Source: Bacteroidales bacterium
GTDB lineage: Bacteria > Bacteroidota > Bacteroidia > Bacteroidales > Tenuifilaceae
Length of the DNA: 64,000 nucleotides
Assembly (NCBI GenBank): GCA_003818205.1
Contig: RPRQ01000017.1
Span: forward strand, 1 to 64,000
Direction of reading: 5' to 3'
Position 1 is the first letter of the stretch, and each line of letters begins with the position of its first letter. The translations under genes were made by a program, and so were the position numbers. The notes below the pieces were generated by a model. It saw nothing but the letters and a program-made list of their open reading frames with translations, had not been told where the DNA came from and did no database searches. This document shows positions 34,359 through 55,569 of the stretch, piece after piece.

Positions 34359-34508
34359 ATGAAACTCAGGAATATCCTTTGGAGGTTTACTAAATGGTTT
34401 TTTAGACTCGTATTCAAGCTATTCATTACTCTTCTATGGGGTTCATTAAGCCTAGTAGAGGTGGTTCTGCACCATCTCAATATTTACCTCAAGAAAATTA
34501 TCAGCTAA
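34359..34508 (+). CDS. Small single-pass membrane protein before the coupling protein
   Basis: A 49-residue ORF with a basic start (MKLRNILWRF) and one hydrophobic helix (LVFKLFITLLWGSLSLVEVVL). It lies between the lipoprotein and the coupling protein and stops 14 bases before the latter's start. Its position and clean membrane segment make it a plausible accessory to the coupling protein, whose own start region is also hydrophobic. Confidence 0.5.
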   Translation: MKLRNILWRFTKWFFRLVFKLFITLLWGSLSLVEVVLHHLNIYLKKIIS

Positions 34509-34522
34509 CCAATACATTCATC

Positions 34523-35968
34523 ATGGACGTAATTATCCAAATTTTTAAACTTCTCTTTGAAATGCTTGAAGGAATAATAAACTTCTCCTTTGAGGCGATT
34601 GAGCTCTGCTTCTCACCAAGGAAGAAGGAGTACAATGCGGAGTTCGCCTCGCAGGGAGCTCTACTTTCAAGGTATAACCACGGTTTCTGCCTAACGGGCA
34701 GAAGGAACTTAACGGTGAAGGATTCATTTCAGAATGCGTTGATTATCGGGGGAACTGGAACAGGGAAGAGCTCGGTTGTGCTTATTCCATCACTTTTCAC
34801 CATGCGGGGTAGCTTTATCGTTCACGATCCATCGGGGGAGCTATTCCTGAAAAGTGCAGGGTATCTGAAAGGGAAAGGTTATGAGATCAAGGTTTTGAAC
34901 TTTGCCAACCCAGAGGGCTCATCGGGTTACAACCCGCTAATCCGAGCCAACAGCTCCTCCGATATTCAAAAGGTGGCATCCATGCTTGTAGAGAATGCTC
35001 TGGGTGGAAAGACGAAGGACCCGTTCTGGAATACGCAGGCAGTTGCGCTACTGGCAATGCTTATCAGCATTCTTAAAAAACAGGATGCTGAATTTCAGAA
35101 TCTGTACAATGTCCGCCAGCTGCTCAATCGTCTTGGTGGAAGCCCTGAGAGCGTGGATGCTCTATTCAGCAGATATGCTGATGAGGTTCTTTTCGCCGAG
35201 TATAAATCGTTTATCGCCTACGATGAGAAGGTGATAAGCGGAGTAATTGCTACCTGCAAGGCATCGCTACAGATTTTCAATGACGAAGCGGTGGCAAGAG
35301 TCACCTCTTTTGATAGCCTGAATTTTCTTGACTTCCGAAAAAAAACAACAGTGCTGTTTATCCAAAACTCCGTTGCCGATCAGAAGTACTACAGCGTGCT
35401 TACCTCCATACTCTTCGAGCAGTTCTTTTCATTTCTACTCGGTCGATTTCCGAATGGCAACGAAAAGGATATTTTTCTGCTGATCGATGAGGCATCATCG
35501 CTGAACCTTCCGACACTGCCTCTGGCGGTTGCCAATGTTCGTAAGCACTGCTCAGGCATTATGCTTCTGGTTCAGGATTTCAACCAGCTGGTACACCACT
35601 ACGGGAAGTACGATGCGGATGGAATAAAATCCAACTGCTTCGCCAAGATGTATTTTACAGGTACATCCCTTGAAACCGCCAAGGAGCTGGAGCAAACGCT
35701 CGGTAAATATCAGTTCGAGGATGACAAAAAAAGAACCGTTGTCCGTCCGCTGATGACCAATGACGAGATCCGCACCATGGATATTAGAAGAGCTTTGCTG
35801 ATCTGCGGGCACCACCCTCCGATTATCGGAAGGCTAAGACCGTACTATAAAAACTCAACCCTCAATGGATACAGTAAGATTCCTGTTCCTCTGATCGAGA
35901 ACAATGAGCTGCTCGGAAGCGTTGCAATATTACCAATGAGTGTTCCTGAAAGAAATGTAGATGAGTAG
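34523..35968 (+). CDS. Type IV coupling protein (TraG/VirD4 family)
   Basis: A hexameric inner-membrane ATPase that delivers the relaxase-DNA complex to a type IV secretion channel. 481 residues: a short hydrophobic N-terminus (MDVIIQIFKLLFEMLEGIINF), Walker A GGTGTGKSSVVLIPS, the VirD4-type HDPSGELFLKSAGYL block, and Walker B FLLIDEASSLNLPTLP, followed by GIMLLVQDFNQL. The longest ORF (34436) overlaps the small membrane gene; the ATG at 34523 is preferred. It overlaps mobC by 8 bases. No other T4SS genes are present, so a channel from another element may be used. Confidence 0.93.
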   Translation: MDVIIQIFKLLFEMLEGIINFSFEAIELCFSPRKKEYNAEFASQGALLSRYNHGFCLTGRRNLTVKDSFQNALIIGGTGTGKSSVVLIPSLFTMRGSFIVHDPSGELFLKSAGYLKGKGYEIKVLNFANPEGSSGYNPLIRANSSSDIQKVASMLVENALGGKTKDPFWNTQAVALLAMLISILKKQDAEFQNLYNVRQLLNRLGGSPESVDALFSRYADEVLFAEYKSFIAYDEKVISGVIATCKASLQIFNDEAVARVTSFDSLNFLDFRKKTTVLFIQNSVADQKYYSVLTSILFEQFFSFLLGRFPNGNEKDIFLLIDEASSLNLPTLPLAVANVRKHCSGIMLLVQDFNQLVHHYGKYDADGIKSNCFAKMYFTGTSLETAKELEQTLGKYQFEDDKKRTVVRPLMTNDEIRTMDIRRALLICGHHPPIIGRLRPYYKNSTLNGYSKIPVPLIENNELLGSVAILPMSVPERNVDE

Positions 35969-36539
35969 TACCAAAAAAGGTAAAGGCGGGATGTGGGCAT
36001 TTCTTGATGCCTCCGGCGTTCTCGAGAAAGGGACTGAGGAGGAGATCAAGGCTGCCAAGAAGGCGTACCGCAAGGGGTACATACTCAGCTATAGAAAAAA
36101 GCAGAGGGCTAATAAACCAGAATTTATCGTATTCCTTTCCAAAATCAATGGCGATTATTCTAGGATTTCTCTAGCTGCCAAACAGCATCGGATGCCCATC
36201 ACGACCTTTCTCCGTGCATCCGCCTTAGCCTATACCAACAAAACATATATCGTCCCCGACCGATTGCAGGTGGCTGAGCTGAAGGGATTGCTTTCTCAAT
36301 GTCTGAACGAGATTCAAACCATCGTTATACAAAAAGAAAAATACTTCTGGGGAAAAGAGCAGAAGTTTAAGGGTGTTGAAAAAAGAATTGAGAAACTGGA
36401 AACAGAAATTAGCCAGAAGCTGAAACAGCCATATACTCTGGAAGAATTAGTCCTAAAAGAAATTGAGAGAAAACCTGAGTTTAAAGTTCGATTACTCGCT
36501 ACTCTTAACTCGTATGATCATCAAAATCAAATCGCATAA
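35961..36539 (+). CDS. MobC-like relaxosome protein
   Basis: A 192-residue basic protein encoded directly before the relaxase, as MobC is in Bacteroidota mobilizable elements. The segment ISLAAKQHRMPITTFLRASALAYTN is a ribbon-helix-helix/MobC-like block, and a coiled coil follows (about 125-160). It probably binds the origin of transfer and helps the relaxase nick. It overlaps the coupling protein gene by 8 bases and the relaxase gene by 26, so translation is coupled. Confidence 0.75.
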   Translation: MSSTKKGKGGMWAFLDASGVLEKGTEEEIKAAKKAYRKGYILSYRKKQRANKPEFIVFLSKINGDYSRISLAAKQHRMPITTFLRASALAYTNKTYIVPDRLQVAELKGLLSQCLNEIQTIVIQKEKYFWGKEQKFKGVEKRIEKLETEISQKLKQPYTLEELVLKEIERKPEFKVRLLATLNSYDHQNQIA

Positions 36540-37368
36540 AAACAGAACATCGTTCCAAAAGTTGCTGAACTATATGCTGTACGACAGGGACAGGCTGTTT
36601 GACGATAAAGGGTACAGCTTTGCTGTAACGCATAACCTAAAAGGAGACAGCATCAAGGAATGGGTAAGGCAGTATCAGGAGAACGAGGAGTCCCGCCAGC
36701 ACAAACGGGTTGATAACGTTCTTGCGACCCATGAGATTATTTCCTTTCACAAGGATGATGCGGTAAATATTTCTTTAGCCAAGCTGGAGGATATTGCAAG
36801 GCGTTACGTTAGGGAGCGTAATATTAACGGAATGTATGTGGCAGTTCCTCATTTTGACAAGGAGCATTACCATATCCATATCTGCGCATCGGGAATTGAG
36901 TATATGACAGGGAAGTCCATGCGGTTGGCAAAAAAGGATTTAGGGATACTAAAACAAAAGGTTCAGGGGTACCAGCTAGAGAAATACCCTGAGCTAAGTA
37001 AATCTATCGTAAATCATGGGAGCCCCCCAAAAGAGAAAGCCCTCCTTTCCGAGAAGGAGTACCAGTACAGGCTAAGGACTGGGAGGGCAACGGACAAAGA
37101 GCAGGTGATTGGAATGCTTAAAACATGCTATAAAAAAGCGAATTCAAGGGATACCTTTTTTGAAATGCTTAAGGAAAGCGGGCTATCCACCTATGTGAGA
37201 GGTGGAAGGATTTCTGGTGTTGTTTTTAGTGATAGAAAGTTCAGGCTGAAAACGCTAGGGTTTACGGAGGAGAGGTTGCAGGAGTTGGATAGAACATTGA
37301 AGCAGTCGAAGGAGATGAACAGGGTAAGGGGGATAACGAAGGAGAAAGAGATTAGGCGTAGGGGATAA
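36514..37368 (+). CDS. Relaxase/mobilization nuclease (MobA/VirD2 family)
   Basis: A 284-residue relaxase that nicks and covalently holds the transferred strand. The metal-binding three-His motif is clear in VPHFDKEHYHIHICASG, and the nucleophilic Tyr is probably in FQKLLNYMLYD near the N-terminus. A TTG at 36463 gives a longer ORF, but the ATG at 36514 starts the domain properly (MIIKIKSHKN). Its C-terminal third (ISGVVFSDRKFRLKTLGFTEERL) exists as degenerate copies at 38.97-39.23 and 49.18-49.43 kb. Confidence 0.92.
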   Translation: MIIKIKSHKNRTSFQKLLNYMLYDRDRLFDDKGYSFAVTHNLKGDSIKEWVRQYQENEESRQHKRVDNVLATHEIISFHKDDAVNISLAKLEDIARRYVRERNINGMYVAVPHFDKEHYHIHICASGIEYMTGKSMRLAKKDLGILKQKVQGYQLEKYPELSKSIVNHGSPPKEKALLSEKEYQYRLRTGRATDKEQVIGMLKTCYKKANSRDTFFEMLKESGLSTYVRGGRISGVVFSDRKFRLKTLGFTEERLQELDRTLKQSKEMNRVRGITKEKEIRRRG

Positions 37369-37387
37369 CATTTACTGATAATGGATT

Positions 37388-38380
37388 ATGAAAGACAAGA
37401 AAGTACGAACTGATGTGTATTCAATGGTTACAAATCGTATCATTGGATATCTGGACAAAGGGGTTGTTCCCTGGCATAAGCCTTGGGCAGATGCTGGCCT
37501 ACCAAGAAATTTAGTAACAGGAAAACATTACAGGGGGATAAATGTATGGCTCCTATCCTCCCTCAGCTATTCTCAGAATGATTTCCTTACCTTCAAACAG
37601 GTAAAGGGATTGGGAGGGTCAGTAAAAAAAGGTGAAAAGGCGCAGATAGTAATTTTTTGGAAGTTGAAAGAAAAAGAAAATAAGGAAACAAAAGAAACAG
37701 AGAAGATTCCAATCCTCAGATATTATAAGGTTTTCAATATTGATCAGTGCGCTGGTATTCCCAAGGAGAAACTCCCACCTGTTATAGAAAGAAATAATAA
37801 TCCACTAGATACCTGTGAAAAAATAATTAGGGGAATGCCAAAGCAACCGAATATAAAGAGCAACGAGCAGAGGGCTTACTACAATAGATCGGATGATTAT
37901 GTGAACGTACCGAGGTTGGAAACATTTACCAGCGGTGAGCGCTACTATAGCACGCTCTTTCATGAGCTGGTACATAGTACGGGGCATAAGGAAAGGTTGA
38001 ACAGAAAAGAGCTTTTGGAGAGTAAGGGTTTACGCTCCGATGATTATGCTGTAGAAGAATTAACAGCAGAGATGGGAGCTTCTTACCTCGAATCCTACGC
38101 AGGGATTCCGGCAGAACACCTTGAAGATAATGCGTCATACATCCAATGCTGGCTTGAGCGGTTAAGGAATGACCGAAAGTTTATCATCTACGCAAGCGCT
38201 CAGGCTCAAAAGGCTACGGATTATATTTTGAATATTAGGAATGGTGGTAAAGAGTTGGGGTATGTAGAGGGTGTTCAAAGGGACGACAATTCTATTGACA
38301 ATGAAAAGGGAAGGTTAGAAGAGCTTGTAACTACTCGTCAAAAGAAGAGTGTTGGTAAGGAATTATCAATTAATGTGTAA
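37388..38380 (+). CDS. ArdC-like antirestriction protein with zinc metallopeptidase domain
   Basis: 330 residues. The N-terminal ArdC ssDNA-binding domain (DVYSMVTNRIIGYLDKGVVPWHKPWA, then GKHYRGINVWLLS) is followed by a zincin-like domain with HEXXH as LFHELVHSTGHKERL and a later Glu in ELTAEMGASYL. ArdC-type proteins protect incoming single-stranded DNA from host restriction during transfer. It lies 19 bases after the relaxase gene and ends the mobilization operon. Confidence 0.9.
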   Translation: MKDKKVRTDVYSMVTNRIIGYLDKGVVPWHKPWADAGLPRNLVTGKHYRGINVWLLSSLSYSQNDFLTFKQVKGLGGSVKKGEKAQIVIFWKLKEKENKETKETEKIPILRYYKVFNIDQCAGIPKEKLPPVIERNNNPLDTCEKIIRGMPKQPNIKSNEQRAYYNRSDDYVNVPRLETFTSGERYYSTLFHELVHSTGHKERLNRKELLESKGLRSDDYAVEELTAEMGASYLESYAGIPAEHLEDNASYIQCWLERLRNDRKFIIYASAQAQKATDYILNIRNGGKELGYVEGVQRDDNSIDNEKGRLEELVTTRQKKSVGKELSINV

Positions 38381-39435: not shown

Positions 39436-42291
39436 CTATTCATGTAAAATTATTATTGGATAAATTATTTTTCTCAAACCATCTTTAAATTGAACAAGTG
39501 AAACAGTTATTTTTTTATTTTTATTCTCAGTTGCAAATAGATAATCCAAATCAAATTTGAAATCATTTAAAAATGTCTTAGCGGTTTGATTACTAGCTTT
39601 AAACAGAGAATTGAATATTTTTTTTGCAGCAGCAATTTTTTTTGCATCGGTAAAATTACCAAAAGGAATTTCGGTTTGAATCTTGCATAAAACAAAAACT
39701 TTCTTTGAATTTAATTCTTCATCAAGATAAACAGGAATGTAATTTATTTCCGAACTAATCCTTAAGTCTTCATATAACTTATCTTTTCTTGAGAACCTAT
39801 CAAGATGTAAAATAAAATGATTACCGTTAATAATTTCATTAGCACTATGGAAGAGAAAAAAATCGTAAACCAACTTTGGCAAACCAATACTAAAACCAGA
39901 TACACATACTTTAATCTCCTTTTCTATTTTACGCAACGAAAAAAAATATCTTGATTTACTCTCAACATTTTTCTTTTTAGTCAACTGCATTAATAGTTTT
40001 TCTTCAAGTGAAAATTTATTGGATTCTATTTTATCCAATTCAGCGTTAGATTTTTTAACTGGGATTATCTTCCCCGATACACCATTTTCAAATTGAAGAA
40101 CATACCGTTCAACTTTAACTTCATTTGAAGTTGTTTTTGTTAATTCATCGTAAGATTTATTCACTAAAATAATGTCTCCAACTTCTCCATTTTCGTAGGG
40201 GTAAACAAAATCATCAAAGCCCCCTTCCTTAAATATTTCGGGTGAAGCAACAAGAAAAAAAGTAAACAACCATGAAAGCGAATCTGTGCATTTGGAAACG
40301 GTCTTGAGATTATCAGAAATCAAAAATCCTCTTAACCCTGGCTTCTGATGAAAGTATTTAATAAGTTCTAATTCGTTTTTGTCATACCAATGTCTTAAAA
40401 GCGGTTCTAATAACTCTTTACTCTTACTGATACCTTGATAGATTCTATTTATCATGTCAGAAAAAGTCCTTACTTGTGGGCTGTTCAAATCTCTTCTTTG
40501 CTTTAATTCCTCTAACAACCTATTAACTTCCTTAGATTGTTTAAGTTTATATTTCTCAACAAGGTGGTTTGCATCGTCAGCGTAACTTTGAGCCCTTTCG
40601 TATTCTCCTAAGTCCATTAGATAAAAACCACAATTAATTTTTGCGACTGCTCCAAATTCATAAAAAGCAGTTCCTTCAACTACATCAATTATTTTTTGCC
40701 AAACTTCAAAAAGTTTATCTTGGTTTCCCAACTTCGCATTTATTTCATTAATGCCTAAAAGTGTATGAGCATACTCACCGATAATATTTTGCTCCTCATA
40801 AATCTTTGCAATCTTGTATGAAATTTCTAAAGCACTTCGCAAATCGTTTAATTGAAAATAGACGAATGATATTTTACCAAGAATGTATGCCTTCTTAGCT
40901 TCTGATTGCTCCTTTGCAAATTGACTTTCGTAGTGCTTTATTAAAAAATCAAGATGCTTATTCCTTTTTTCAATGTCTCCCTTTTTGTCTGCAATTTGAG
41001 CTAAATCTTTATAGGCATGAGCTATTGAATGTTGTAAATCGTTCTCCTCTGCAAACTTTATTAATTCAGCAATATATTTTTCCGCATCCTCATATTTTTT
41101 TTGAGCAATGAAATAAGATACAAATTGTTCCAGAAAATATGCAACACCTTTTTTATCATTTGTCTTTTTGATTTCTTCATATCCCTCTTGGAAAATTTGA
41201 AGTGAAAGTTCTTTCTGCCCTGACATATAAGCAATCCTTGAAACTAAATCTATACATCTTGCAAGCCAACTATAATCTTGCATTTCACGAAAAATACTCT
41301 TGGCTTCCTCAATGTATTCTTTCCACTTACCTTGTGCAAAATTGCCTTCAAAACATTCTATCTCTGTTAATTCAAATAGTAGTTGAGCATACTCTTTTCT
41401 CTTCTTTAGAATTTTATGTCCATCTAATGCTTTTAAGCAATACCCTTTTGCCTCTGAAATTTTCCCAAGTCGTTTGAAAATGACTGATTTGTTTTGATAG
41501 CAAAAAGTGATGGTTTCAGTTCCTATGTTTGTTTCTTTTTCGTCTTCACTAAGAGTTAAACGAATACCATACTTAATGGCTTCATCCATTAAATCATTTG
41601 CTTTTTGCAAATCATCTTTTTGCATAAATACAAAACCTACAATCATGTATGCCCTTGCTAAATCATCATTCTCGGATTTAATTTTAGCGAAATCAAGAAA
41701 GTCATTTGCAAAAATTTCAGCACTACTGAGGTCGCCTAAAAATGCTTTTGTTTGTGCAAGGGATTCTTTGGTATAAGCAATGTCGTCTTCCTTCTTATAT
41801 TTTTCAAAAACTTTAAGGCACTCTAAGAGTATCTCATCTTTCTTTTCAAGATTGAAATACTTTTCATTGACAATTCTTGCATATTGCTTTTTTAACTTAG
41901 CAATACTATACTCATGATTGGTTACATCTGAAAGAACCTTTGCCTTCAAATAAATATCTTCTGCTTCATCGTATTTGTGTTCATCAATTAACTTTTTCAA
42001 TTCTTCAAGTAAGGGTTTAATTTCTTTATCAACTTCAACATGAATAACTGAACTGATTTTTAGTTTAACTCTTTTTACTTCTTCCTCTTTCCTTATTCCC
42101 TTAGTAATTTCTTCGTGACAGGAAGGGCAAAGCATTATTAGGTTTTCAATGTGGTTGCTTTCAGGTTCAGTAACAATGTGGTGAATTTCAAAAATTGCTA
42201 CATCAGTTCTTGGGCAAAAAGGACACTTTGAACCTATCTCTTGTTGAAGAATTTTTAAAGTTGCAGGTTTATGTGGCGTTCTATTTTTCAT
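39436..42291 (-). CDS. HNH nuclease-TPR protein, third gene of ATPase/kinase/HNH operon
   Basis: 951 residues. The N-terminal 65 form an HNH nuclease: zinc-knuckle C23-x2-C26, catalytic-type H37-H38 in FEIHHIV, Asn50, and C55-x2-C58-H59. About residues 75-640 are a long series of TPR-like helical repeats. The C-terminal 300 residues are mixed and unrecognised, with two similar segments (about 700 and 740). The start codon directly follows the kinase-fold gene's stop, so translation is coupled. HNH nucleases often cut phage DNA in ATPase-nuclease defence systems; the TPR array may sense or scaffold. Function inferred. Confidence 0.82.
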   Translation of the reverse strand: MKNRTPHKPATLKILQQEIGSKCPFCPRTDVAIFEIHHIVTEPESNHIENLIMLCPSCHEEITKGIRKEEEVKRVKLKISSVIHVEVDKEIKPLLEELKKLIDEHKYDEAEDIYLKAKVLSDVTNHEYSIAKLKKQYARIVNEKYFNLEKKDEILLECLKVFEKYKKEDDIAYTKESLAQTKAFLGDLSSAEIFANDFLDFAKIKSENDDLARAYMIVGFVFMQKDDLQKANDLMDEAIKYGIRLTLSEDEKETNIGTETITFCYQNKSVIFKRLGKISEAKGYCLKALDGHKILKKRKEYAQLLFELTEIECFEGNFAQGKWKEYIEEAKSIFREMQDYSWLARCIDLVSRIAYMSGQKELSLQIFQEGYEEIKKTNDKKGVAYFLEQFVSYFIAQKKYEDAEKYIAELIKFAEENDLQHSIAHAYKDLAQIADKKGDIEKRNKHLDFLIKHYESQFAKEQSEAKKAYILGKISFVYFQLNDLRSALEISYKIAKIYEEQNIIGEYAHTLLGINEINAKLGNQDKLFEVWQKIIDVVEGTAFYEFGAVAKINCGFYLMDLGEYERAQSYADDANHLVEKYKLKQSKEVNRLLEELKQRRDLNSPQVRTFSDMINRIYQGISKSKELLEPLLRHWYDKNELELIKYFHQKPGLRGFLISDNLKTVSKCTDSLSWLFTFFLVASPEIFKEGGFDDFVYPYENGEVGDIILVNKSYDELTKTTSNEVKVERYVLQFENGVSGKIIPVKKSNAELDKIESNKFSLEEKLLMQLTKKKNVESKSRYFFSLRKIEKEIKVCVSGFSIGLPKLVYDFFLFHSANEIINGNHFILHLDRFSRKDKLYEDLRISSEINYIPVYLDEELNSKKVFVLCKIQTEIPFGNFTDAKKIAAAKKIFNSLFKASNQTAKTFLNDFKFDLDYLFATENKNKKITVSLVQFKDGLRKIIYPIIILHE

Positions 42292-44127
42292 TTACTCGTT
42301 TATGAGTTCAATTATTTTTTTACTGAGAACTTCCGCTGTTGCCAAGGCATACGATTGATTTAGGTCTGCATATTGAATTTGCCGAAAGTTTATAATGAAT
42401 AGTGAGATTAGGTATTCTAAAGGATTGGTGTTGTCAATCATATGTTGTTTAGCGTTCTCTCTGATTTGAGTGATAAGTTTGACTATTTCCAAAACTGATG
42501 GTCTCTTGATAAATAAGAGGTCAAATGATTTTGAGAAACTACTGATTGAGAGAAGTTCTGTCTCGCAACTTGTCAACTCATCTACTGGAATATAAAAAGG
42601 CAAATGCTTAAACTTCAAAGAACATTCAAGTGTCGCATGGTCAATCAATGAGTGATGTTGATTCGTCCAACCAAAATCAATTAAGTAAACGCCTGCTTGT
42701 TCATCTTTGAAAAAGTTTTCACTATGTAAATCTCCATGACATATTTTTTTATAGGTTCTGAGAGAAGAATTTTTTATCGTTTTATAATTTCTGACTAATT
42801 CCTCTGTATTGATTGCAGATTCATCAATGCCTTTGATAAGCGAAATTGCTTTCAATATTTTGGCTTCTGATTTTAAATAGTCGCCATAAAGTGTTTTTAC
42901 AGAAAAAGTATCTTCTGATTTCTTTGTGTTCCATATTTGATATGGGGCACAACCAAACAATTCATCAATTACTTTTTCAAGGGTGAATGAGTGATTGTAT
43001 TTATCTCTTAATTTATCGCTAACCAATTTTGAAAATGGAAACGAATCTTTCTTGCTGTCTGACGAAGCATAATTGTATCGGATTGCTTCATGAGTAACTG
43101 TATCTTCATATTCGGCTGTATAATTTGGAACTAACAAATCGGAAATGTATTGCCTAAAAAGCGATTTTTCTTTCTTGATTTTTCTCTCTTGATTTTTCAC
43201 ATCAAACTTGACAACAAACCTTCCCATTTCGGGATGGTTACCTCTAAGCGGTTGGATTTCTATAACCTTTGAACCACTGTTGCCACTTTTCAGAAATTTA
43301 TAATCAAGAATCATTTCGTTGCCGTCAAATAGTTTTTTGATTATTAATTCTTCCTCAAATGACAAAGCACGGTTGTTGAATATTTTATCAGAATAACTTT
43401 TTATACTTTCTAAGCCATCACCTGAATCACGAACATCATAATCTCCTGCAACCGATACTGGAATTTTCTTTAGTGAAATAAAACTTGTGTTTGAAAAAAT
43501 GCCAAGTAATTTTTCAACATCAGGAACAAAGATTTCATTGTTCCGAAGGTTTGAGGCGATTAAGAAAACACATAAATAATTTTGATTGGCTACTTCGGGT
43601 TTCTTATTAGCCAACTCTAAAAAATCCTTCAACTGATATTTCTCAATGTGAAGATTTTCATCCTTTACATCAAATGAGTTTATCTCAGGATGCCTACTGT
43701 AGCTTTCATCATAAAGAACAATGACTTTGGTTTTTGTATCAATAGCGTTTTCTAATTTGTAAACGAAATACCCTTTTATTTTAAGGAAGAAAGATTCATA
43801 CTTTGAGAAAAAATTGAACAAGACCTTATTGAAATCATCTTCAATGTCTATTTTCTTTTCTTTCTTTTTTACTGTGGTAATTTTTGATGACGCTTCCCAT
43901 GTGGCTTTATCTTTTTCTAAAGTTTCGTAGTTCAGATTAGGAATTTCAATTCCATCCTCAAACGATTCATTTTCTATTTGCTTAAAAAGCGGAAGGAGTT
44001 CATATCTTTCTTCAGGTGGTAGAGCTAAAAGTTTTGCAACGAAATCCTGTGCTAATCCGAAAGCATATTCTTGCTTTAGCCGAATTTCAGTGTATTCTTG
44101 AAGATATGTTGAAAGCACATTTTTCAT
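42292..44127 (-). CDS. Kinase-fold (aminoglycoside phosphotransferase-like) protein, second gene of the operon
   Basis: 611 residues. The N-terminal 220 are unrecognised. From about residue 265 there is a protein-kinase-like/APH fold: a Lys-containing strand in RFVVKFDVKNQ, the catalytic loop KKICHGDLHSENF (about residue 462), and the metal loop YLIDFGWTN (about 479). HGDxxxxN and DFGW are intact, so phosphotransfer is plausible. Related kinase-fold domains appear in bacterial conflict systems, where the substrate is usually unknown. It starts 2 bases after the ATPase stop. An antibiotic-resistance role is unlikely given the size and context. Confidence 0.75.
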   Translation of the reverse strand: MKNVLSTYLQEYTEIRLKQEYAFGLAQDFVAKLLALPPEERYELLPLFKQIENESFEDGIEIPNLNYETLEKDKATWEASSKITTVKKKEKKIDIEDDFNKVLFNFFSKYESFFLKIKGYFVYKLENAIDTKTKVIVLYDESYSRHPEINSFDVKDENLHIEKYQLKDFLELANKKPEVANQNYLCVFLIASNLRNNEIFVPDVEKLLGIFSNTSFISLKKIPVSVAGDYDVRDSGDGLESIKSYSDKIFNNRALSFEEELIIKKLFDGNEMILDYKFLKSGNSGSKVIEIQPLRGNHPEMGRFVVKFDVKNQERKIKKEKSLFRQYISDLLVPNYTAEYEDTVTHEAIRYNYASSDSKKDSFPFSKLVSDKLRDKYNHSFTLEKVIDELFGCAPYQIWNTKKSEDTFSVKTLYGDYLKSEAKILKAISLIKGIDESAINTEELVRNYKTIKNSSLRTYKKICHGDLHSENFFKDEQAGVYLIDFGWTNQHHSLIDHATLECSLKFKHLPFYIPVDELTSCETELLSISSFSKSFDLLFIKRPSVLEIVKLITQIRENAKQHMIDNTNPLEYLISLFIINFRQIQYADLNQSYALATAEVLSKKIIELINE

Positions 44128-44129
44128 AG

Positions 44130-46031
44130 TTAAGCATTATCACCATAGAGTTTTTTTCTTGTATCAAAAGCTTCTTTTCCGCCTTCAAGCAAAGTCAAAA
44201 TATTTTCCTTCACATTCTTAATTGAACCCGAAACATCAATCTTGGATTTTTTCTCGTCATAGTTTAAGAATACATTATGCTCTGAATCGGAAAGAACAGG
44301 AATGTTAGGATTGTGAGTGATAAAAATTAACTGTCTCTTTTCTTTTTGCTCACGAATGATTTTATGAATTGCATCAGTGATATACTTGTTGTCCAAATTA
44401 TCTTCTGGCTGGTCAATCAACAAAGGATTATCTGATACTGCAAAAACTATTGGTAAAACTGTTGTGCATCTTTGACCTGTTGAAAGTTCATCTGATTTTT
44501 TGTAATGCTCCTTTGCTTTTTTGTCTTTGCTTCCTTTGGCATCAACTTTCAGAAAGAACTCAGGCAAATCTTCACTGTATAAACTTTCAATTTCGTAAAT
44601 CTCCTCGCTTTCATGCAAAGCATCAATGATTGCATTTGACCTTTCTTCATCAATCTGTGCTACATTTTTTAAGGTTTCAAAATCTCTTTCATGGATGGTT
44701 GCAGCAAACTTGTCGGGGGATAGATTTTGAACGATATAAGGAATGATTGCATTGTATCTCAAATTAGAACCCTTCAAAGCATTTCTCAAATGAGTTTCAT
44801 ATTCGTCTGTTATACCTCCAAAAGTCAAAGTGATTTTAATTGAACCTTCCAATTCAGTGTTTAACTCATTGACTATATTTTTTCGGAGTGTAAAGAGTTC
44901 TCTCTTTTTGTCGTTCAGTTGTTTTACAAGCGTTACTCTTTGGGTTTTTACTTTTTGTCTTTTCGTTTCTAATGTTCCAATTTCTTTTTCAAGTATTTGT
45001 TTTTCCTCAACTTTTTTTGAAAGTTGATTGTATTTGTTGATGTATTCTTTGTGCTTGTCAAACTTCTGTTTCAGTTTGACAAACTCACTCTGCTGAGTTT
45101 GGTGAACATTTTTTAATTCCCCTGATATTTTTTCAACTTTAGAAATTGACTGAGTTATCAATTTAATGTTAGCAGAATTTTCCTTTAAGATTTTATTCAA
45201 TGATTCTTCTAATTCGGTTTTGATTTTACCAATGATTTCTTTATTGATAAATGATTTGGCATCTGAGTTAATCGTCAGGAAACTTTGTATCTCCTCATTT
45301 ACATCTTGCAAACTATCCTTTGTCTCAGTAAGCTTTTCAAGAACTTTTGCCGCATACCTCTTTTCTGAATTTCTTATTTTTTCATTGCCATCTGCCTTCT
45401 CAAATTCTTCTTGCTCCTTCTGCTTAATATCGTCTGGCTTTTCTTCCTTTTGCCGTTTTAAATCTTCTTCAACAGTTTTGAAATTCAGAAGTTGTTCTTT
45501 TATCTGTGCAACTCTTGCGTTCTCACTTCTTATTGAAACTGCATTTTGCTTTAAAGCAATACGCAACTTCTTTATTTCAGATTTAGTTGTGTTTACCTCA
45601 GCACGAATTTGTTTGTCAATAAGGTCAAGACGGTCTTTGCTGCTTAATCCAATTCGTTCTATTTTCAATGCAGGATAAATGTCGCACTCAAAAATGTCCT
45701 CTAAACTTTCCAAAGAAATATTACGCTTGCCAGGGAGTGTATTAACCTGTGGTTCATCACCAAATGTTTTCACTACTTCGTAAGATTTCCCTTCGTTGTC
45801 CTCAACCAAAAGTTGTATCGTCCCGTTTAGCAAATTTGCTTTTAGGATATTTGAAACATTTGAATCTTCTTCTGCTTCATTATTCAATGCTGCCTGAATA
45901 AAATACAACAGTGTTGATTTTCCTGTCCCTCGTCCACCCATTAAGCAATTCAGCTTTTCTGAAAAACTGAGTGAGAAGTTTTCTTCAAAGAAGGAAGAAC
46001 CTTTTACCGATAATGATTTGATTCTTTTCAT
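44130..46031 (-). CDS. SMC/Rad50-like ATPase, first gene of the operon
   Basis: 633 residues with a split ABC ATPase head: Walker A MGGRGTGKSTLL (residues 32-40), a long coiled coil (about 130-400), the ABC signature LSTGQR (about 514), Walker B LLIDQPEDNLDN (about 540) and a switch His in IFITHNPNIPVL. This is the build of PtuA/RecN/Rad50-type ATPases that regulate nucleases in Septu, Gabija and related defences. Its partners here are a kinase-fold protein and an HNH-TPR protein, which matches no system I can name. About 900 bases upstream carry no gene on this strand apart from a small ORF. Confidence 0.87.
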   Translation of the reverse strand: MKRIKSLSVKGSSFFEENFSLSFSEKLNCLMGGRGTGKSTLLYFIQAALNNEAEEDSNVSNILKANLLNGTIQLLVEDNEGKSYEVVKTFGDEPQVNTLPGKRNISLESLEDIFECDIYPALKIERIGLSSKDRLDLIDKQIRAEVNTTKSEIKKLRIALKQNAVSIRSENARVAQIKEQLLNFKTVEEDLKRQKEEKPDDIKQKEQEEFEKADGNEKIRNSEKRYAAKVLEKLTETKDSLQDVNEEIQSFLTINSDAKSFINKEIIGKIKTELEESLNKILKENSANIKLITQSISKVEKISGELKNVHQTQQSEFVKLKQKFDKHKEYINKYNQLSKKVEEKQILEKEIGTLETKRQKVKTQRVTLVKQLNDKKRELFTLRKNIVNELNTELEGSIKITLTFGGITDEYETHLRNALKGSNLRYNAIIPYIVQNLSPDKFAATIHERDFETLKNVAQIDEERSNAIIDALHESEEIYEIESLYSEDLPEFFLKVDAKGSKDKKAKEHYKKSDELSTGQRCTTVLPIVFAVSDNPLLIDQPEDNLDNKYITDAIHKIIREQKEKRQLIFITHNPNIPVLSDSEHNVFLNYDEKKSKIDVSGSIKNVKENILTLLEGGKEAFDTRKKLYGDNA

Positions 46032-46706: not shown

Positions 46707-46967
46707 CTACTGGTTCCAATGTCTTATAGTATGGAGTTTGGAAACCGTTCTCCCCGCGAGAGCAACCCCAACTACTACACTTATGATTCCGTTTATCATA
46801 GTTGTAAAGTTTTGAATTAACATCATTGTTACCAATGAGGAGAACGTCACCACTCCAACTAAGGGCATTGCAAATTCAATAGTCAATGTAACCCTTAAAC
46901 TCAGGCTCTTTTGTCCCGATTCTGGGACTATATTTTCAATGGATATTATCATAAATTTCTGCTTCAC
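46707..46967 (-). CDS. Possible small two-TM protein downstream of TIR-STING
   Basis: An 86-residue ORF with two hydrophobic helices (EFAMPLVGVVTFSSLVTMML and MINGIISVVVGVALAG) and a basic tail. Its start codon lies inside the last 32 bases of the TIR-STING gene in another frame, which suggests translational coupling, and most of it does not overlap any other gene. No family is recognised. It may be a third CBASS component or chance; confidence is moderate to low. Confidence 0.4.
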   Translation of the reverse strand: MKQKFMIISIENIVPESGQKSLSLRVTLTIEFAMPLVGVVTFSSLVTMMLIQNFTTMINGIISVVVGVALAGRTVSKLHTIRHWNQ

Positions 46968-47889
46968 GTTTAACTAATACCATTTCGTCAAATCCGTGTC
47001 TGATTAATAATTTTTTTAGAGTAGTAATAAATCGTCTTAACTCTCTCTCAAGAATCGAATTATAGTCAGGACTTAATTTATTAAAATCGTTAGGAAGCAG
47101 ATTTGCTATGGAGTGATTTATTCCAGCAATTATTGTTGGAAAGTCAATAAATTCAAGAGTGTTATTTTTTATTTGAGTGTCGATGCTTACATGCCTTGGT
47201 CTTCCTGCATATTTGAATGAGACATTTTCAGTCTCAATTGACGATTTCAATTTTTCAAATTGAAGATTTACATCTTCATTAATTCTGTCAGGTATGATAA
47301 CATTCACTTTGCATTTTTTGTAATGAATATCTTTGGATGTAAATCCTCCGTTTTCAATGATGAACCTACAAATGGGGACAAGTAGATTTTCAAAATATAC
47401 CGAAGCCAATGTTGCGGACGGAAAGAAATTAATTTCATCATCTGCACTTGAAAGAAACAAATCCTTTATCTGATTTACCGCAGTTTCAAAACTTGCTTTG
47501 TCCTTCTTGTCAAAATGAGCTAAAGACAGTCCGTTAAAATCTGAAAGTAATTTTATTTCTTTGTCAATTAGAAATGCACATTTGGATGTCCCTAAACGTC
47601 CAGTAAATAAACCTAATTCAAAAAGGACATTATCTCTTGGTTGCATAACTTCTTTACCTCTAAAAACCACCATGTCATCATTAGTGCCAAGCAAAATGCC
47701 GAAGTCAAATTGCAAAGATGCTTTTAAAAGGTCGGCTAAAAAATTCTGATTTATTTTGAAAACTGAAGTGTCCCAAACCTTTTCATTCCAGATGCTAACA
47801 TCAAAATCTTTTTCTAAAATAGATTTAGCAATTTCAGCAAGTACGAGTTCTTCAGTTGAAGAACCAATGAACAATTTCTTTTTTATCAT
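46936..47889 (-). CDS. TIR-STING CBASS effector
   Basis: 317 residues. Residues 1-150 form a TIR-like nucleotide-binding domain (LFIGSSTEE at the start; putative catalytic Glu91 in DNVLFELGLFTG). Residues 155-317 resemble prokaryotic STING: the FKYAGRPRHVSIDTQI lid strands and then TLEFIDFPTIIAGINHSI, which align in pattern with the lid and LEYATPLQTLFA region of human STING. In known TIR-STING systems, c-di-GMP made by the partner CD-NTase drives filament formation and NAD+ cleavage, killing the infected cell. It overlaps the CD-NTase gene by 4 bases (ATGA), so the two are co-translated. Confidence 0.85.
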   Translation of the reverse strand: MIKKKLFIGSSTEELVLAEIAKSILEKDFDVSIWNEKVWDTSVFKINQNFLADLLKASLQFDFGILLGTNDDMVVFRGKEVMQPRDNVLFELGLFTGRLGTSKCAFLIDKEIKLLSDFNGLSLAHFDKKDKASFETAVNQIKDLFLSSADDEINFFPSATLASVYFENLLVPICRFIIENGGFTSKDIHYKKCKVNVIIPDRINEDVNLQFEKLKSSIETENVSFKYAGRPRHVSIDTQIKNNTLEFIDFPTIIAGINHSIANLLPNDFNKLSPDYNSILERELRRFITTLKKLLIRHGFDEMVLVKREAEIYDNIH

Positions 47890-48944
47890 ACTCTTACTGT
47901 GCTTTTAAAATCAATAAAGATTGCTTCTACTTCTGCTAATAGTAATTTTAAGTTTTGCAGTTTGGTTGCCTTGTTTCTAAATATGTATTCTTTATTATCT
48001 ACAGAAGTTACATCATCAGAATGTGTTTGTTTGGTGCAAATACTTTTCATTTGATTATACAAAACAGGAACAAGTTCATAAAATGACAAGTTCTGATATT
48101 CAGAAGCTTTAATGTCATAGCAAATTGCGTTTATGTCAAAACTGCTTAAATCTATTTCGTGGTCAGAGTTCGCTTTGCTATTCTTTAAGAACCTAATCAT
48201 CTTTTTAAGTCTTCCGTTTGTTTCCGAACTACGGTCATTAATTCGTTTGATACTTAGAAATGGAAAGTCAGCACTTTCTCTTGAGTGAGTTTCTTTGTTA
48301 TAAACTTGAATTCCTCTGTAATCTCCTTTGTCATTGATGACAGAAGAAACATCATCATACCAATTGGCAATAACAATATCAACTTCACGATTTAGACTTA
48401 GGTTTTTTATTTTGATAGATTTGGGCTTTGTTAAGTCACGTGTTTGATACTTGTCTGATAGAATTCTTTCGCTATCCAGTCTTAACTCTCGTAAATCATT
48501 TAAAGCATTGCCGGTATAGGAAGGTAAATTTATTTCTCTCTGAAGTTTGTCAATATATGTTTGATTGTATTTTGCCCTTCGTTCAGGTGTATCTAAAATC
48601 GTTTTAAAGTTCCTTGTATCAGGCTGGTAGAATTTTTCACAGATAGTAAGCAAGTCAATGTCGCTGTATCCTTTAATGTGGGTGTCGGTCATTACTGAGC
48701 CTTGATACTTGAATGAAACATCTTTTAATTCGTTAGCAAGATGTTCCTTTACTCGTTCCCCAGCATCTCTGCTCTTCTGAGTGTATTCAGGTTCAACCCC
48801 TTTCATAGCAACTCTTATGTAAGTCAATACATCACTATAAGATATTGTAGACAGTTCATCAGAAAATGCTTTTTTGATTGCAAAGTTTTCAGGGTTGATT
48901 CGTCCGCGAATACTTTCTGTTAGTTGTTTGTAATTTTTTGCCAT
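47886..48944 (-). CDS. CD-NTase (CdnE-like cyclic dinucleotide synthase) of CBASS
   Basis: 352 residues of the cGAS/DncV-like nucleotidyltransferase superfamily. The active site is intact: G82-S83 of FKYQGSVMTDT, the metal-binding D95-I-D97 in GYSDIDLL, and the third Asp189 in NREVDIVIANW. It should be switched on by phage infection to make a cyclic dinucleotide that activates the effector encoded next to it. STING-linked enzymes of this kind make c-di-GMP; that product is inferred from the partner. No ubiquitin-like or HORMA/TRIP13 regulators are nearby, so this is the minimal two-gene (type I-like) layout. Confidence 0.88.
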   Translation of the reverse strand: MAKNYKQLTESIRGRINPENFAIKKAFSDELSTISYSDVLTYIRVAMKGVEPEYTQKSRDAGERVKEHLANELKDVSFKYQGSVMTDTHIKGYSDIDLLTICEKFYQPDTRNFKTILDTPERRAKYNQTYIDKLQREINLPSYTGNALNDLRELRLDSERILSDKYQTRDLTKPKSIKIKNLSLNREVDIVIANWYDDVSSVINDKGDYRGIQVYNKETHSRESADFPFLSIKRINDRSSETNGRLKKMIRFLKNSKANSDHEIDLSSFDINAICYDIKASEYQNLSFYELVPVLYNQMKSICTKQTHSDDVTSVDNKEYIFRNKATKLQNLKLLLAEVEAIFIDFKSTVRV

Positions 48945-49891: not shown

Positions 49892-51370
49892 TTAAGAATT
49901 CATAAGCTTTTCCGTCCGTTCAAGCACTATTCTTTTTTTGAGTTTTACGATATTGCAAAAATACTCATTAACTGCTAACGGGTCTCCCTGAGGATTTTCA
50001 TTTGCATTTCTAACCATACACATAGTACAAAACTCTTTATCAGGACATTGAATACATTTAGGAAAGTCTTGATTGCGTAAGGCTCTTAAATATTTCACTT
50101 TTTCAGAATTATCCCAAATATCATTGAGAGCAGTTTCGTTTACATTACCAACAACATAATCCTGCCAGCCAGCACAAGGATAGACATTTCCATTGTCTGC
50201 TATGCAAATAGAGGAATGACAAACACTACAGACAAAATCGTTTGGAGTAGTATTTTTTTTCTTCTCAACTTCCATTTCCATTTGTTCCAAATATTTTGCA
50301 TCATTCTCAACTTTGTCGTTAATCACTTCTTTGATTTCATTAATTGATAGACGGTAACTCAAATTTTGTGTTGTATGGTTATATCTTGCTATGATGCCAT
50401 AATCATCTCCGACACGAATCTTATTCTTTTTCGCCCATTTGATAACGTCATCATAACAGTTCTTGTTTTGTTTCAATATTGGACAGCTTATTTGCAAAGG
50501 GATATCATTCTCAATCAGTTTCAAAATTGCTTTTTTTGTTTTTTCAAAACTCCCTTTCATTTGGGTAATCTCATCGTGAATACAGGAATCCATTGAGTAT
50601 AATGAGACTTGAACACCTAAAAGGGGGTTTGCCTTCATCTCTTTAATAATTTCATCATTAAGTAATGTCAAATTACTAAGGACATTTACAGAAAAATCAT
50701 ATTCTTTGCATGTTCTTAAAAAATCGCAAAAATTTTTGTGCAACATTGGTTCGCCACCACTTAACGTCAAATGCAATAACCTCATATTTTTACTTTGTTC
50801 TAAAACAGCATAAAAAAAATCAGGCTCGATATGATTTACTTTGTTATCATGTGGAATATAACAATGTACGCATCTTTCGTTGCACTTGCTTGTAATTTCA
50901 ATGTGTAAATTTGTAAGCTGTGGTTTGCCTTTAAAGTATTCTTCTAGAAAATCCTGTGTGGATTTTTCAGGATGCATAATAGTCGGAGAAGAATCCTTTT
51001 TTATTGTTTCGTGTTTTAATGTCTTGTAGGAAAACCTCGTGTCTTTTTCTTCGCACTCTTGCAAGGTCTCGCCAGATACAATAAATCCATCCCGTTCAAG
51101 CATGTAATAAAATTCTCTGACATCATTCTTTATTGTTCTAATGTCAACATCTGTAAATTGCTTCTTTATTTTTTTTGCAAGTTCATCAAGGGTTTGTGGT
51201 TTTCTATCTAAAACAGACATAAAAACTGCCCCACTTTCCGATAGGATTTTGTCACCGATGTAGTTTTCGTTATTATTTGTTTGTTTATATCCGAAATTCC
51301 TATTGTCCGTTATATACCCAAAAGACTCATATTTTCTGAATAAAACATTAGATTTTTGCTTGAAAAACAT
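49892..51370 (-). CDS. Radical SAM/SPASM peptide maturase
   Basis: 492 residues. An N-terminal PqqD-like peptide-binding domain (about 40-105; TLDELAKKIKKQFTDVDIRTIKNDV) precedes the radical SAM core with the CxxxCxxC cluster C163-NER-C167-VH-C170, the GGE motif in LTLSGGEPML, and a C-terminal SPASM domain with CSVCHSSICI, the PCAGW Cys and CIQCPDKEFCTMC for auxiliary Fe-S clusters. Such enzymes install C-C, thioether or epimer modifications on RiPP precursors. A 41-residue precursor is encoded just upstream across a hairpin. The chemistry cannot be predicted. Confidence 0.9.
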   Translation of the reverse strand: MFFKQKSNVLFRKYESFGYITDNRNFGYKQTNNNENYIGDKILSESGAVFMSVLDRKPQTLDELAKKIKKQFTDVDIRTIKNDVREFYYMLERDGFIVSGETLQECEEKDTRFSYKTLKHETIKKDSSPTIMHPEKSTQDFLEEYFKGKPQLTNLHIEITSKCNERCVHCYIPHDNKVNHIEPDFFYAVLEQSKNMRLLHLTLSGGEPMLHKNFCDFLRTCKEYDFSVNVLSNLTLLNDEIIKEMKANPLLGVQVSLYSMDSCIHDEITQMKGSFEKTKKAILKLIENDIPLQISCPILKQNKNCYDDVIKWAKKNKIRVGDDYGIIARYNHTTQNLSYRLSINEIKEVINDKVENDAKYLEQMEMEVEKKKNTTPNDFVCSVCHSSICIADNGNVYPCAGWQDYVVGNVNETALNDIWDNSEKVKYLRALRNQDFPKCIQCPDKEFCTMCMVRNANENPQGDPLAVNEYFCNIVKLKKRIVLERTEKLMNS

Positions 51371-54600: not shown

Positions 54601-55569
54601 TTAGATTTTGTTGTCTTTCACTAATCTCCAGTAGTGATATCCAAGACTTGTAAGTTTACATGCCTTTGAATTCATTGCCGCGAAATACATAAATTGTTCT
54701 TCAACAGGTACAACAAGTCCAATACTTTGCAATTTTTGAAGATTCTTAAATATTGTTACATTCTTACGTTTTGCATATGGTTTAACTACTTTATGCTCAA
54801 TTTGCAAAGTATTTGTATCTTCATAGGATGGGTCTAAAAAGTAGAGTTCTGTAGGAGATGGGAAATATTCAGCCAATTTTCGTATAATATCTATTGGAAC
54901 TTGAGGGATCACGGTTCTTAATGATATAAATCTTGTAATATTTGTTTTAAAAACAGGACGTTGATCCCACGCTCCCAAGGCCTGATCGATGTACGCATAA
55001 ACACTACCCGGTGTAATATGGCCATTAAGGTCTGCTGCCCCCCCCAGTAAAGCATCAAGCAACAAATTCGTAAAAACGCCATGTCCGTTAATTTCTAAAG
55101 ATGTCTCGCTATCCCTACTGGCAGTAAGAATTGAAACCCCTTCAGCTATGTGAGCAGATCGGTCTCCAGTAATTTTGGGAGAACCAAATGCCCCAGAATA
55201 ACAACAATCAAGAACAATTACCCGGTTTTCTGCTTTAGATTCATTTGCAATAGCAAGTATTTCATCCATCGAAACCCCTTCATCGTTTCGCTTATAATCA
55301 GGCGTTACGATATATCCACCGATGTCATTAATAAAACCATGTCCAGAAAAATAGAATAGTGCAGTTTCATTTTTCCCTTTAAATAATTCGATAATTAAAC
55401 TTTTTAACTCACCTTTTGTTGGAACATCTGTTTTTAGTTTCACATCGTAATTCGGAGAACCATTACCATTCTTTTCAATGATACTGGCAAACGCTTCCGC
55501 ATCATTAACACACCCGCTAAGAGGTGCGCTGGGGTATTTATTTATACCAATAACAAGTGCTTTCTTCAT
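54601..55569 (-). CDS. Caspase-like peptidase (C14 family)
   Basis: 322 residues. The N-terminal 210 are a caspase fold with the start KKALVIGINKYP, catalytic His77 in YFSGHGF and catalytic Cys123 in VLDCCYSG. The C-terminal 110 residues (RKLAEYFPSPTELYFLDPS...) look like a separate helical, perhaps winged-helix, domain. In bacterial conflict systems such proteases are activated effectors that cleave cell proteins. It is the first gene of the caspase-TIR-OMP run and follows DUF4407 with a 181-base gap, so it may have its own promoter. Confidence 0.88.
   Translation of the reverse strand: MKKALVIGINKYPSAPLSGCVNDAEAFASIIEKNGNGSPNYDVKLKTDVPTKGELKSLIIELFKGKNETALFYFSGHGFINDIGGYIVTPDYKRNDEGVSMDEILAIANESKAENRVIVLDCCYSGAFGSPKITGDRSAHIAEGVSILTASRDSETSLEINGHGVFTNLLLDALLGGAADLNGHITPGSVYAYIDQALGAWDQRPVFKTNITRFISLRTVIPQVPIDIIRKLAEYFPSPTELYFLDPSYEDTNTLQIEHKVVKPYAKRKNVTIFKNLQKLQSIGLVVPVEEQFMYFAAMNSKACKLTSLGYHYWRLVKDNKI

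Follow-up and report, generated by a model that had tools for sequence, protein, structure and literature searches.

A candidate two-gene ATPase-kinase unit followed by an HNH-TPR gene in a Bacteroidales bacterium

Genes at the locus and features of their products

The window analysed here, a stretch of 64,000 nucleotides from a contig of a Bacteroidales bacterium, carries three intact open reading frames on its minus strand, spanning positions 46031 to 39436 with gaps of 2 and 0 bp. These encode an SMC/Rad50-type ABC ATPase that resembles the ATPase half of TrlF but lacks a PHP domain (44130-46031, minus strand, 633 aa); a TCAD9/APH-fold kinase (42292-44127, minus strand, 611 aa), recognized from Pfam, an AlphaFold model, and Foldseek and VIA matches; and an HNH endonuclease-TPR protein, HNH-TPR (39436-42291, minus strand, 951 aa), with Pfam HNH and TPR_12 matches above cut-off. 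An earlier note on this sequence had described this three-gene arrangement, the operonic placement of the kinase with the ATPase, and intact catalytic motifs in all three proteins; the ORF coordinates, the shared strand and our reading of the junctions (TAA-CT-ATG between ATPase and kinase, TAA-ATG between kinase and HNH-TPR) agree with it, and the motifs were located in each protein, those of the ATPase and kinase being conserved in alignments. The GC content of the trio is 0.31-0.33, against 0.39 in twelve other window genes taken as a host-like baseline. In a promoter and terminator scan of the locus, promoter-like sites were no commoner than in shuffles, the sigma-70 consensus being one that may not suit this host.

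The same-strand neighbour upstream, located 904 bp from the ATPase gene and outside the ATPase-kinase(-HNH-TPR) unit, is a CBASS (46936-48944). Its adjacency, also pointed out earlier, is confirmed by a TIR-STING effector gene (46936-47889, minus strand) with prok_STING and CAP12 TIR domains above cut-off (135 and 99 bits), while the overlapping gene (47886-48944, minus strand) is a probable CD-NTase judging from its position and a weak NTP_transf_2 match (17.1 bits, below the cut-off of 21). On the plus strand, a mobilisation block (34436-38380) displays Pfam matches to a T4SS coupling protein, a relaxase and an ArdC-like protein. Farther along the window are a radical SAM/SPASM protein with a PqqD-like domain, possibly a peptide-maturation gene (49892-51370), and, about 6 kb past the CBASS genes, a caspase-domain protein (54601-55569; Peptidase_C14, 66.5 bits).

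In the ATPase, the Walker A motif GGRGTGKST starts at residue 32, the signature LSTGQR at 516, the Walker B motif LLIDQPEDNLDN at 537 and ITHN at 571; all four are kept in an alignment of five relatives. Its Pfam AAA_23 match barely exceeds the cut-off (28.2 bits vs 27), and its clearest full-length NCBIfam relative is TrlF (TrlF_fam_ATP, 275 bits), matched from profile position 289 of 944. We take the first part of TrlF to be its PHP domain, which the window ATPase lacks, given where the match begins. Among the solved relatives of the ATPase family profile, SMC3, SMC and Rad50 rank on top, an ABC-F protein being also present. Within PADLOC, 11 families were matched at E up to 0.1, with scores of 72 bits for Ppl, 31.4 for LmuB and 22 for AriA.

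The kinase is constituted by a helical N-terminus (residues about 1-116), an alpha/beta domain (about 119-250) and a kinase domain (about 251-611). The kinase fold proposed in the earlier note is borne out by the Pfam TCAD9 model (PF19974), which matches with 66.7 bits against a curated cut-off of 40, and by structure searches, which indicate a choline-kinase/APH fold. An AlphaFold model built from 19 sequences (mean pLDDT 69, the C-terminal domain 251-611 being better) matched glucosamine kinase, methylthioribose kinase, maltokinase, choline kinase and APH/aminoglycoside kinases in Foldseek and VIA; the best structural match reached Z 16.2 with an rmsd of 5.3 over 304 residues, and the VIA-align rows cover residues 251-610. 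Folds of the choline-kinase/APH type mostly phosphorylate small molecules. The catalytic residues are K307, E320, H464-G465-D466, N471, D484 and D496; in a 10-row alignment all are invariant except K307 and E320, which are nearly so, and in a 19-row alignment H464, D466, N471, D484 and D496 are invariant, with K307 and G465 nearly so. Response_reg is absent from the Pfam matches of the kinase. By eye, the alpha/beta domain might pass for a degenerate receiver; two hhalign profile comparisons, with few sequences, gave no receiver homology.

In HNH-TPR, the HNH domain (residues 23-63) presents the motif residues C23, C26, H37, H38, N50, C55, C58 and H59, whose functional roles we assume; with a Pfam HNH (PF01844) score of 26.7 bits against a cut-off of 21.4, and with the HH/N/H residues and paired cysteines present, the protein has the features of an HNH endonuclease. 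An array of about 560 TPR residues had been proposed for it. Its size is roughly right according to a single-sequence model (pLDDT 46.6, low confidence) with helical repeats from about 92 to 620, the Foldseek matches listed for it being TPR proteins, LGN and kinesin light chain among them, but only the middle, where TPR matches fall between about 176 and 502, is well supported. The C-terminal 330 residues or so gave no convincing domain match; the last 311 aa were found only in the own genome among 395 phylum-sample and 286 order-sample genomes, and a pattern search of genome contigs, which detects close relatives only, returned no relative.

Conservation of gene content among relatives

The window ATPase belongs to a clade with a tree support of 100. 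Its four known members are the window, Terrimonas (locus L028), Mucilaginibacter endophyticus (L029, with the kinase in L112; genome G708) and genome G828 (L114), the latter lying outside the tree and placed by its kinase. ATPase and kinase are found next to each other, in the same order and with intact catalytic motifs in all four, and HNH-TPR in one, a weak count because only four clade members are known. The Mucilaginibacter locus is divided between contig ends, and there the C-terminus of the ATPase was read directly upstream of the kinase. The ATPase is 52% identical to that of Terrimonas (44-52% within the clade, two relatives measured), and the kinase is 35% identical to the kinase of Terrimonas pollutisoli and 32% to that of G828; the two Terrimonas genes are adjacent, and with such identity to a gene pair elsewhere the window trio is more than a set of chance ORFs.

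The surroundings of the pair differ from one clade member to another. The Terrimonas ATPase gene is preceded, at a distance of 15 bp, by the gene of a stand-alone 185-aa HSDR_N protein (L028 332-889; 40.5 bits, cut-off 25.1), and past the kinase the next gene listed lies on the opposite strand. In the Mucilaginibacter and G828 loci, both from one family sample, no nuclease is joined to the pair; in G828 the kinase is followed at 77 bp by a lipoprotein-like ORF and almost 1 kb farther by a 323-aa ORF. More distantly, the pair without HNH-TPR is also present in L017, L055, L073, L088 and L092, L055 stopping at a contig end. The earlier note had read the trio as one system, and had counted frequent occurrence of each gene without the others as evidence against it; the nuclease is the gene that fails in this respect, as the ATPase-kinase pair stands without HNH-TPR in L028, L029/L112 and L114 as well as in the distant loci. 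As far as gene order and sequence indicate, the conserved unit thus consists of two genes, ATPase and kinase, with the nuclease gene not kept.

Two explanations of the third gene have to be weighed against this pattern. In one, in line with the earlier note, the nuclease is under the control of the kinase, which would phosphorylate HNH-TPR or a co-factor as an on/off switch once the ATPase has sensed phage. The zero-base junction between the two genes, their closely similar codon use (distance of 0.151, the lowest among ten pairs compared) and the intact active sites of all three proteins argue for such control; however, ATPase and kinase persist without the nuclease in three of the four clade members, where the kinase must have another role, and the kinase fold is nearest to small-molecule kinases, so that we consider this explanation unlikely. 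In the other, HNH-TPR came to lie behind the pair as unrelated cargo, and the three proteins do not work together. The HNH pattern was found in none of 3276 ORFs from 85 ATPase loci, and the GC3 of HNH-TPR is lower than that of its partners (0.241 vs 0.29-0.30), both consistent with a chance arrival; on the other hand, the stop-start junction is direct and on the same strand, and extra effector-like genes are tightly joined to the pair elsewhere, namely the HSDR_N gene of L028 and an Abi_C gene of L092, which makes an accidental neighbour improbable in our judgement.

The occurrence of these genes is patchy. Of the 301 genomes sampled from the Mucilaginibacter family, 2 have the clade kinase. 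Within the window's own family, the ATPase was detected at E 1e-30 in 2 of 27 genomes, the second being a 28% match in a frame of TrlF size, as its 895 aa indicate; the short-form ATPase is confined to the own genome among these 27. Any match to the kinase was obtained in 4 of 395 phylum genomes and 8 of 295 order genomes (the own genome counted in both), and those beside an ATPase are the window and L017 (genome G208) only. Weak kinase matches from the order and phylum samples (L002, L004-L011) were rejected as members of the system, being TCAD9-type with no ATPase match within the fetched 15-19 kb. Searches of viral contigs, phages and plasmids gave no relatives of the window kinase, the ATPase clade or HNH-TPR, nor was the DNA of the whole trio found in plasmids. 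Other TCAD9-type kinases of the window's order (L019 and L020; genomes G587 and G487) stand alone with no nearby ATPase, and two carry an N-terminal extension that looks STAS-like by eye.

Partner classes in the wider ATPase family

Scanning genome contigs with the ATPase alignment confirmed at least 547 relatives, and the best 80 of these were surveyed for their partner genes. A TCAD9-type kinase is encoded in the operon at 18 of these best 80 loci, 13 times as a receiver-kinase fusion after a histidine kinase and 5 times directly. We distinguished five classes: A, the window clade (2 loci, in one of which the contig ends ahead of the kinase); B, relatives with HEAT-HATPase and/or receiver-wHTH partners (21 loci); C, with a histidine kinase and a receiver-TCAD9 kinase (13 loci); D, an ATPase with a TCAD9 kinase that has another N-terminus (5 loci, including L079, which was placed here on an N-terminal kinase match only, of 42-46 bits); and E, with an AlbA_2-HATPase partner and ATPase ORFs of TrlF, that is PHP-sized, length (28 loci). 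The remaining 11 loci were left unassigned. Classes were assigned from phmmer and HMM matches, and Pfam covered examples only, namely three proteins of class B, four receiver-kinases from plasmids and two histidine kinases for class C, three kinases of class D and one class E partner. Beyond the 80, separate searches supplied locus L017 of class D and four plasmid loci of class C.

On an ATPase tree of 85 rows, to which the window was added and from which the B locus L059 was left out as too short, the partner type follows the ATPase phylogeny, with 9 class changes against 48.7 in shuffles, a comparison that tests clustering only. The sister of class A (support 80) is formed by class B and two unassigned rows, rather than by the kinase-bearing classes C or D; therefore, the pairing with a kinase may have arisen more than once. 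The accessory genes differ by locus, being HNH-TPR in the window, HSDR_N in L028 and Abi_C in L092 (9887-13083), where the pair is followed by a 405-aa Abi_C protein (53 bits) with an overlap of about 12 bp. Small genes directly upstream of two class D pairs (L073 7389-7907 and L088 7463-7885) look like HTH regulators by eye. Class B ends in a receiver-wHTH protein; three-gene operons in which this ATPase type is joined by a HEAT-repeat HATPase and by such a receiver-wHTH protein were observed in L030, L033-L046, L049, L056 and others, mostly of Planctomycetota and Verrucomicrobiota.

Class C operons were seen on plasmids and chromosomes of several phyla (L012-L015, L053, L054, L061-L066, L072, L077, L086, L089, L104), the plasmid locus L013 being from Leclercia. 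Their histidine kinases share an invariant His-Glu and the N and G residues (15 aligned) and their receivers invariant Asp residues and a Thr (12 aligned); the receiver-kinase is present in 47 plasmid records, 36 of them from Piscirickettsia. PADLOC profiles, run on two class C loci, did not match the histidine kinase, and matched the receiver-kinase only in the receiver region, apart from one weak MkoA stretch. Class C thus looks like a complete His-Asp relay, a histidine kinase followed by a receiver-kinase fusion, attached to an SMC-type ATPase, with the TCAD9 kinase as the predicted response-regulator output by architecture. This is the main reason for reading the window kinase as an output as well, and not merely as a regulator of the nuclease. 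The relay proteins are absent from the window's branch, and in the window kinase the alpha/beta domain occupies the place of the receiver of the sister relay kinases.

Comparison with known systems and a proposed circuit

An ABC-type ATPase beside an HNH protein recalls Septu (PtuA/PtuB), from which the window differs in its other type of ATPase, its kinase and its TPR array; the earlier note had already set the locus apart from Septu on the last two grounds, and PADLOC profiles do not assign it there. A divergent Septu with an inserted kinase could account for the presence of an ATPase and an HNH domain, and the PtuB profile touches HNH-TPR in the HNH region only (14.9 bits, E 0.0042). Against this, no PtuA model is among the 11 PADLOC families matched by the ATPase at E up to 0.1, the solved relatives of the ATPase are headed by SMC/Rad50, the 611-aa kinase gene separates the two members of the would-be two-gene unit, and no HNH pattern occurs at the relatives' loci; we regard such an origin as extremely improbable.

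The window ATPase aligns along its full length to the ATPase part of TrlF and Ppl, which are PHP-fused SMC-type ATPases, Ppl being anti-phage by its NCBIfam name. The scores, however, fall below the curated thresholds (275.1 vs 350 for TrlF and 97.3 vs 1000 for Ppl), the ATPase begins at the start of the protein with no N-terminal PHP, and its partner is a kinase instead of an AlbA_2-HATPase; membership in TrlF/Ppl was rejected on the profile results. Weaker ATPase similarity links the locus to Lamassu (LmuB) and PARIS (AriA), but the partner proteins match neither LmuA nor AriB, and membership in Lamassu was rejected accordingly. TCAD9 is tied to vWA-MoxR-VMAP conflict systems in a figure legend of one paper (PMC10910872), as are APH-superfamily kinases in another (PMC7159879). 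The window kinase resembles the TCAD9 of these ternary systems in exceeding the curated cut-off, but its N-terminus is another one and its partner is an SMC-type ATPase; Pfam showed neither vWA nor MoxR in its operon partners, the ATPase and HNH-TPR. The class C operons (plasmid loci L012-L015 and 13 genome loci) share the ATPase type and the kinase domain, although they place a phosphorelay between the two, which the window locus lacks. The combination of this ATPase with an APH-fold kinase is absent from the PADLOC 2023 models scanned, and its coupling, direct or through a phosphorelay, was not found described in full-text searches restricted to open-licence articles.

From the observed gene linkage, intact motifs, kinase fold and differing third genes, we tentatively favour reading the ATPase and kinase genes as the signalling core of an SMC/TrlF-type conflict system, to which a nuclease has been added locally. 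The ATPase would sense an invader-related state of DNA, and its binding of ATP would release or activate the kinase through the N-terminal part of the latter, which would replace the histidine kinase and receiver of the sister systems. The kinase would then phosphorylate a small molecule, a peptide or a protein as the conserved output, probably leading to growth arrest. HNH-TPR, whose gene directly follows that of the kinase, would be a second effector that cuts DNA, its TPR array perhaps docking it to the complex or to the target.

A role in defence is suggested by the CBASS neighbour, the Abi_C partner in L092, the presence of class C on plasmids, the patchy occurrence and the NCBIfam name of Ppl. 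Conversely, the family could form a regulatory rather than a lethal circuit, because sister class B ends in a receiver-wHTH protein. The pair might even be a DNA-damage or stress signalling module unrelated to defence, as the sister operons resemble two-component systems, with a receiver-wHTH output and histidine kinases bearing invariant residues; the rarity of the short-form ATPase and of the clade kinase in their family samples, together with the plasmid-borne relay class, the Abi_C partner and the adjacent CBASS, argues against it and leaves it quite improbable.

Considered as a whole, the ATPase-kinase pair has the look of a defence circuit that has received little study and in which phosphate transfer is the signal. 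A broader generalization, possible but doubtful, is that SMC-type ATPases of this family serve as sensors of immune circuits signalling by phosphate transfer, through a His-Asp relay to a small-molecule-type kinase in one branch and directly from ATPase to kinase in the window branch, the nuclease being a second, kinase-gated effector. If the role is indeed defensive, bacteria would possess an immune pathway based on a phosphorylation cascade, and the substrate of the kinase would become a tractable question. The coupling of ABC/SMC-type ATPases to nucleases is a known defence theme, and the ingredients of the window locus are known singly. ABC ATPases paired with varied nucleases are reported in PMC12839542, and HATPase and REC domains are named for predicted systems in a figure legend of PMC13092281.
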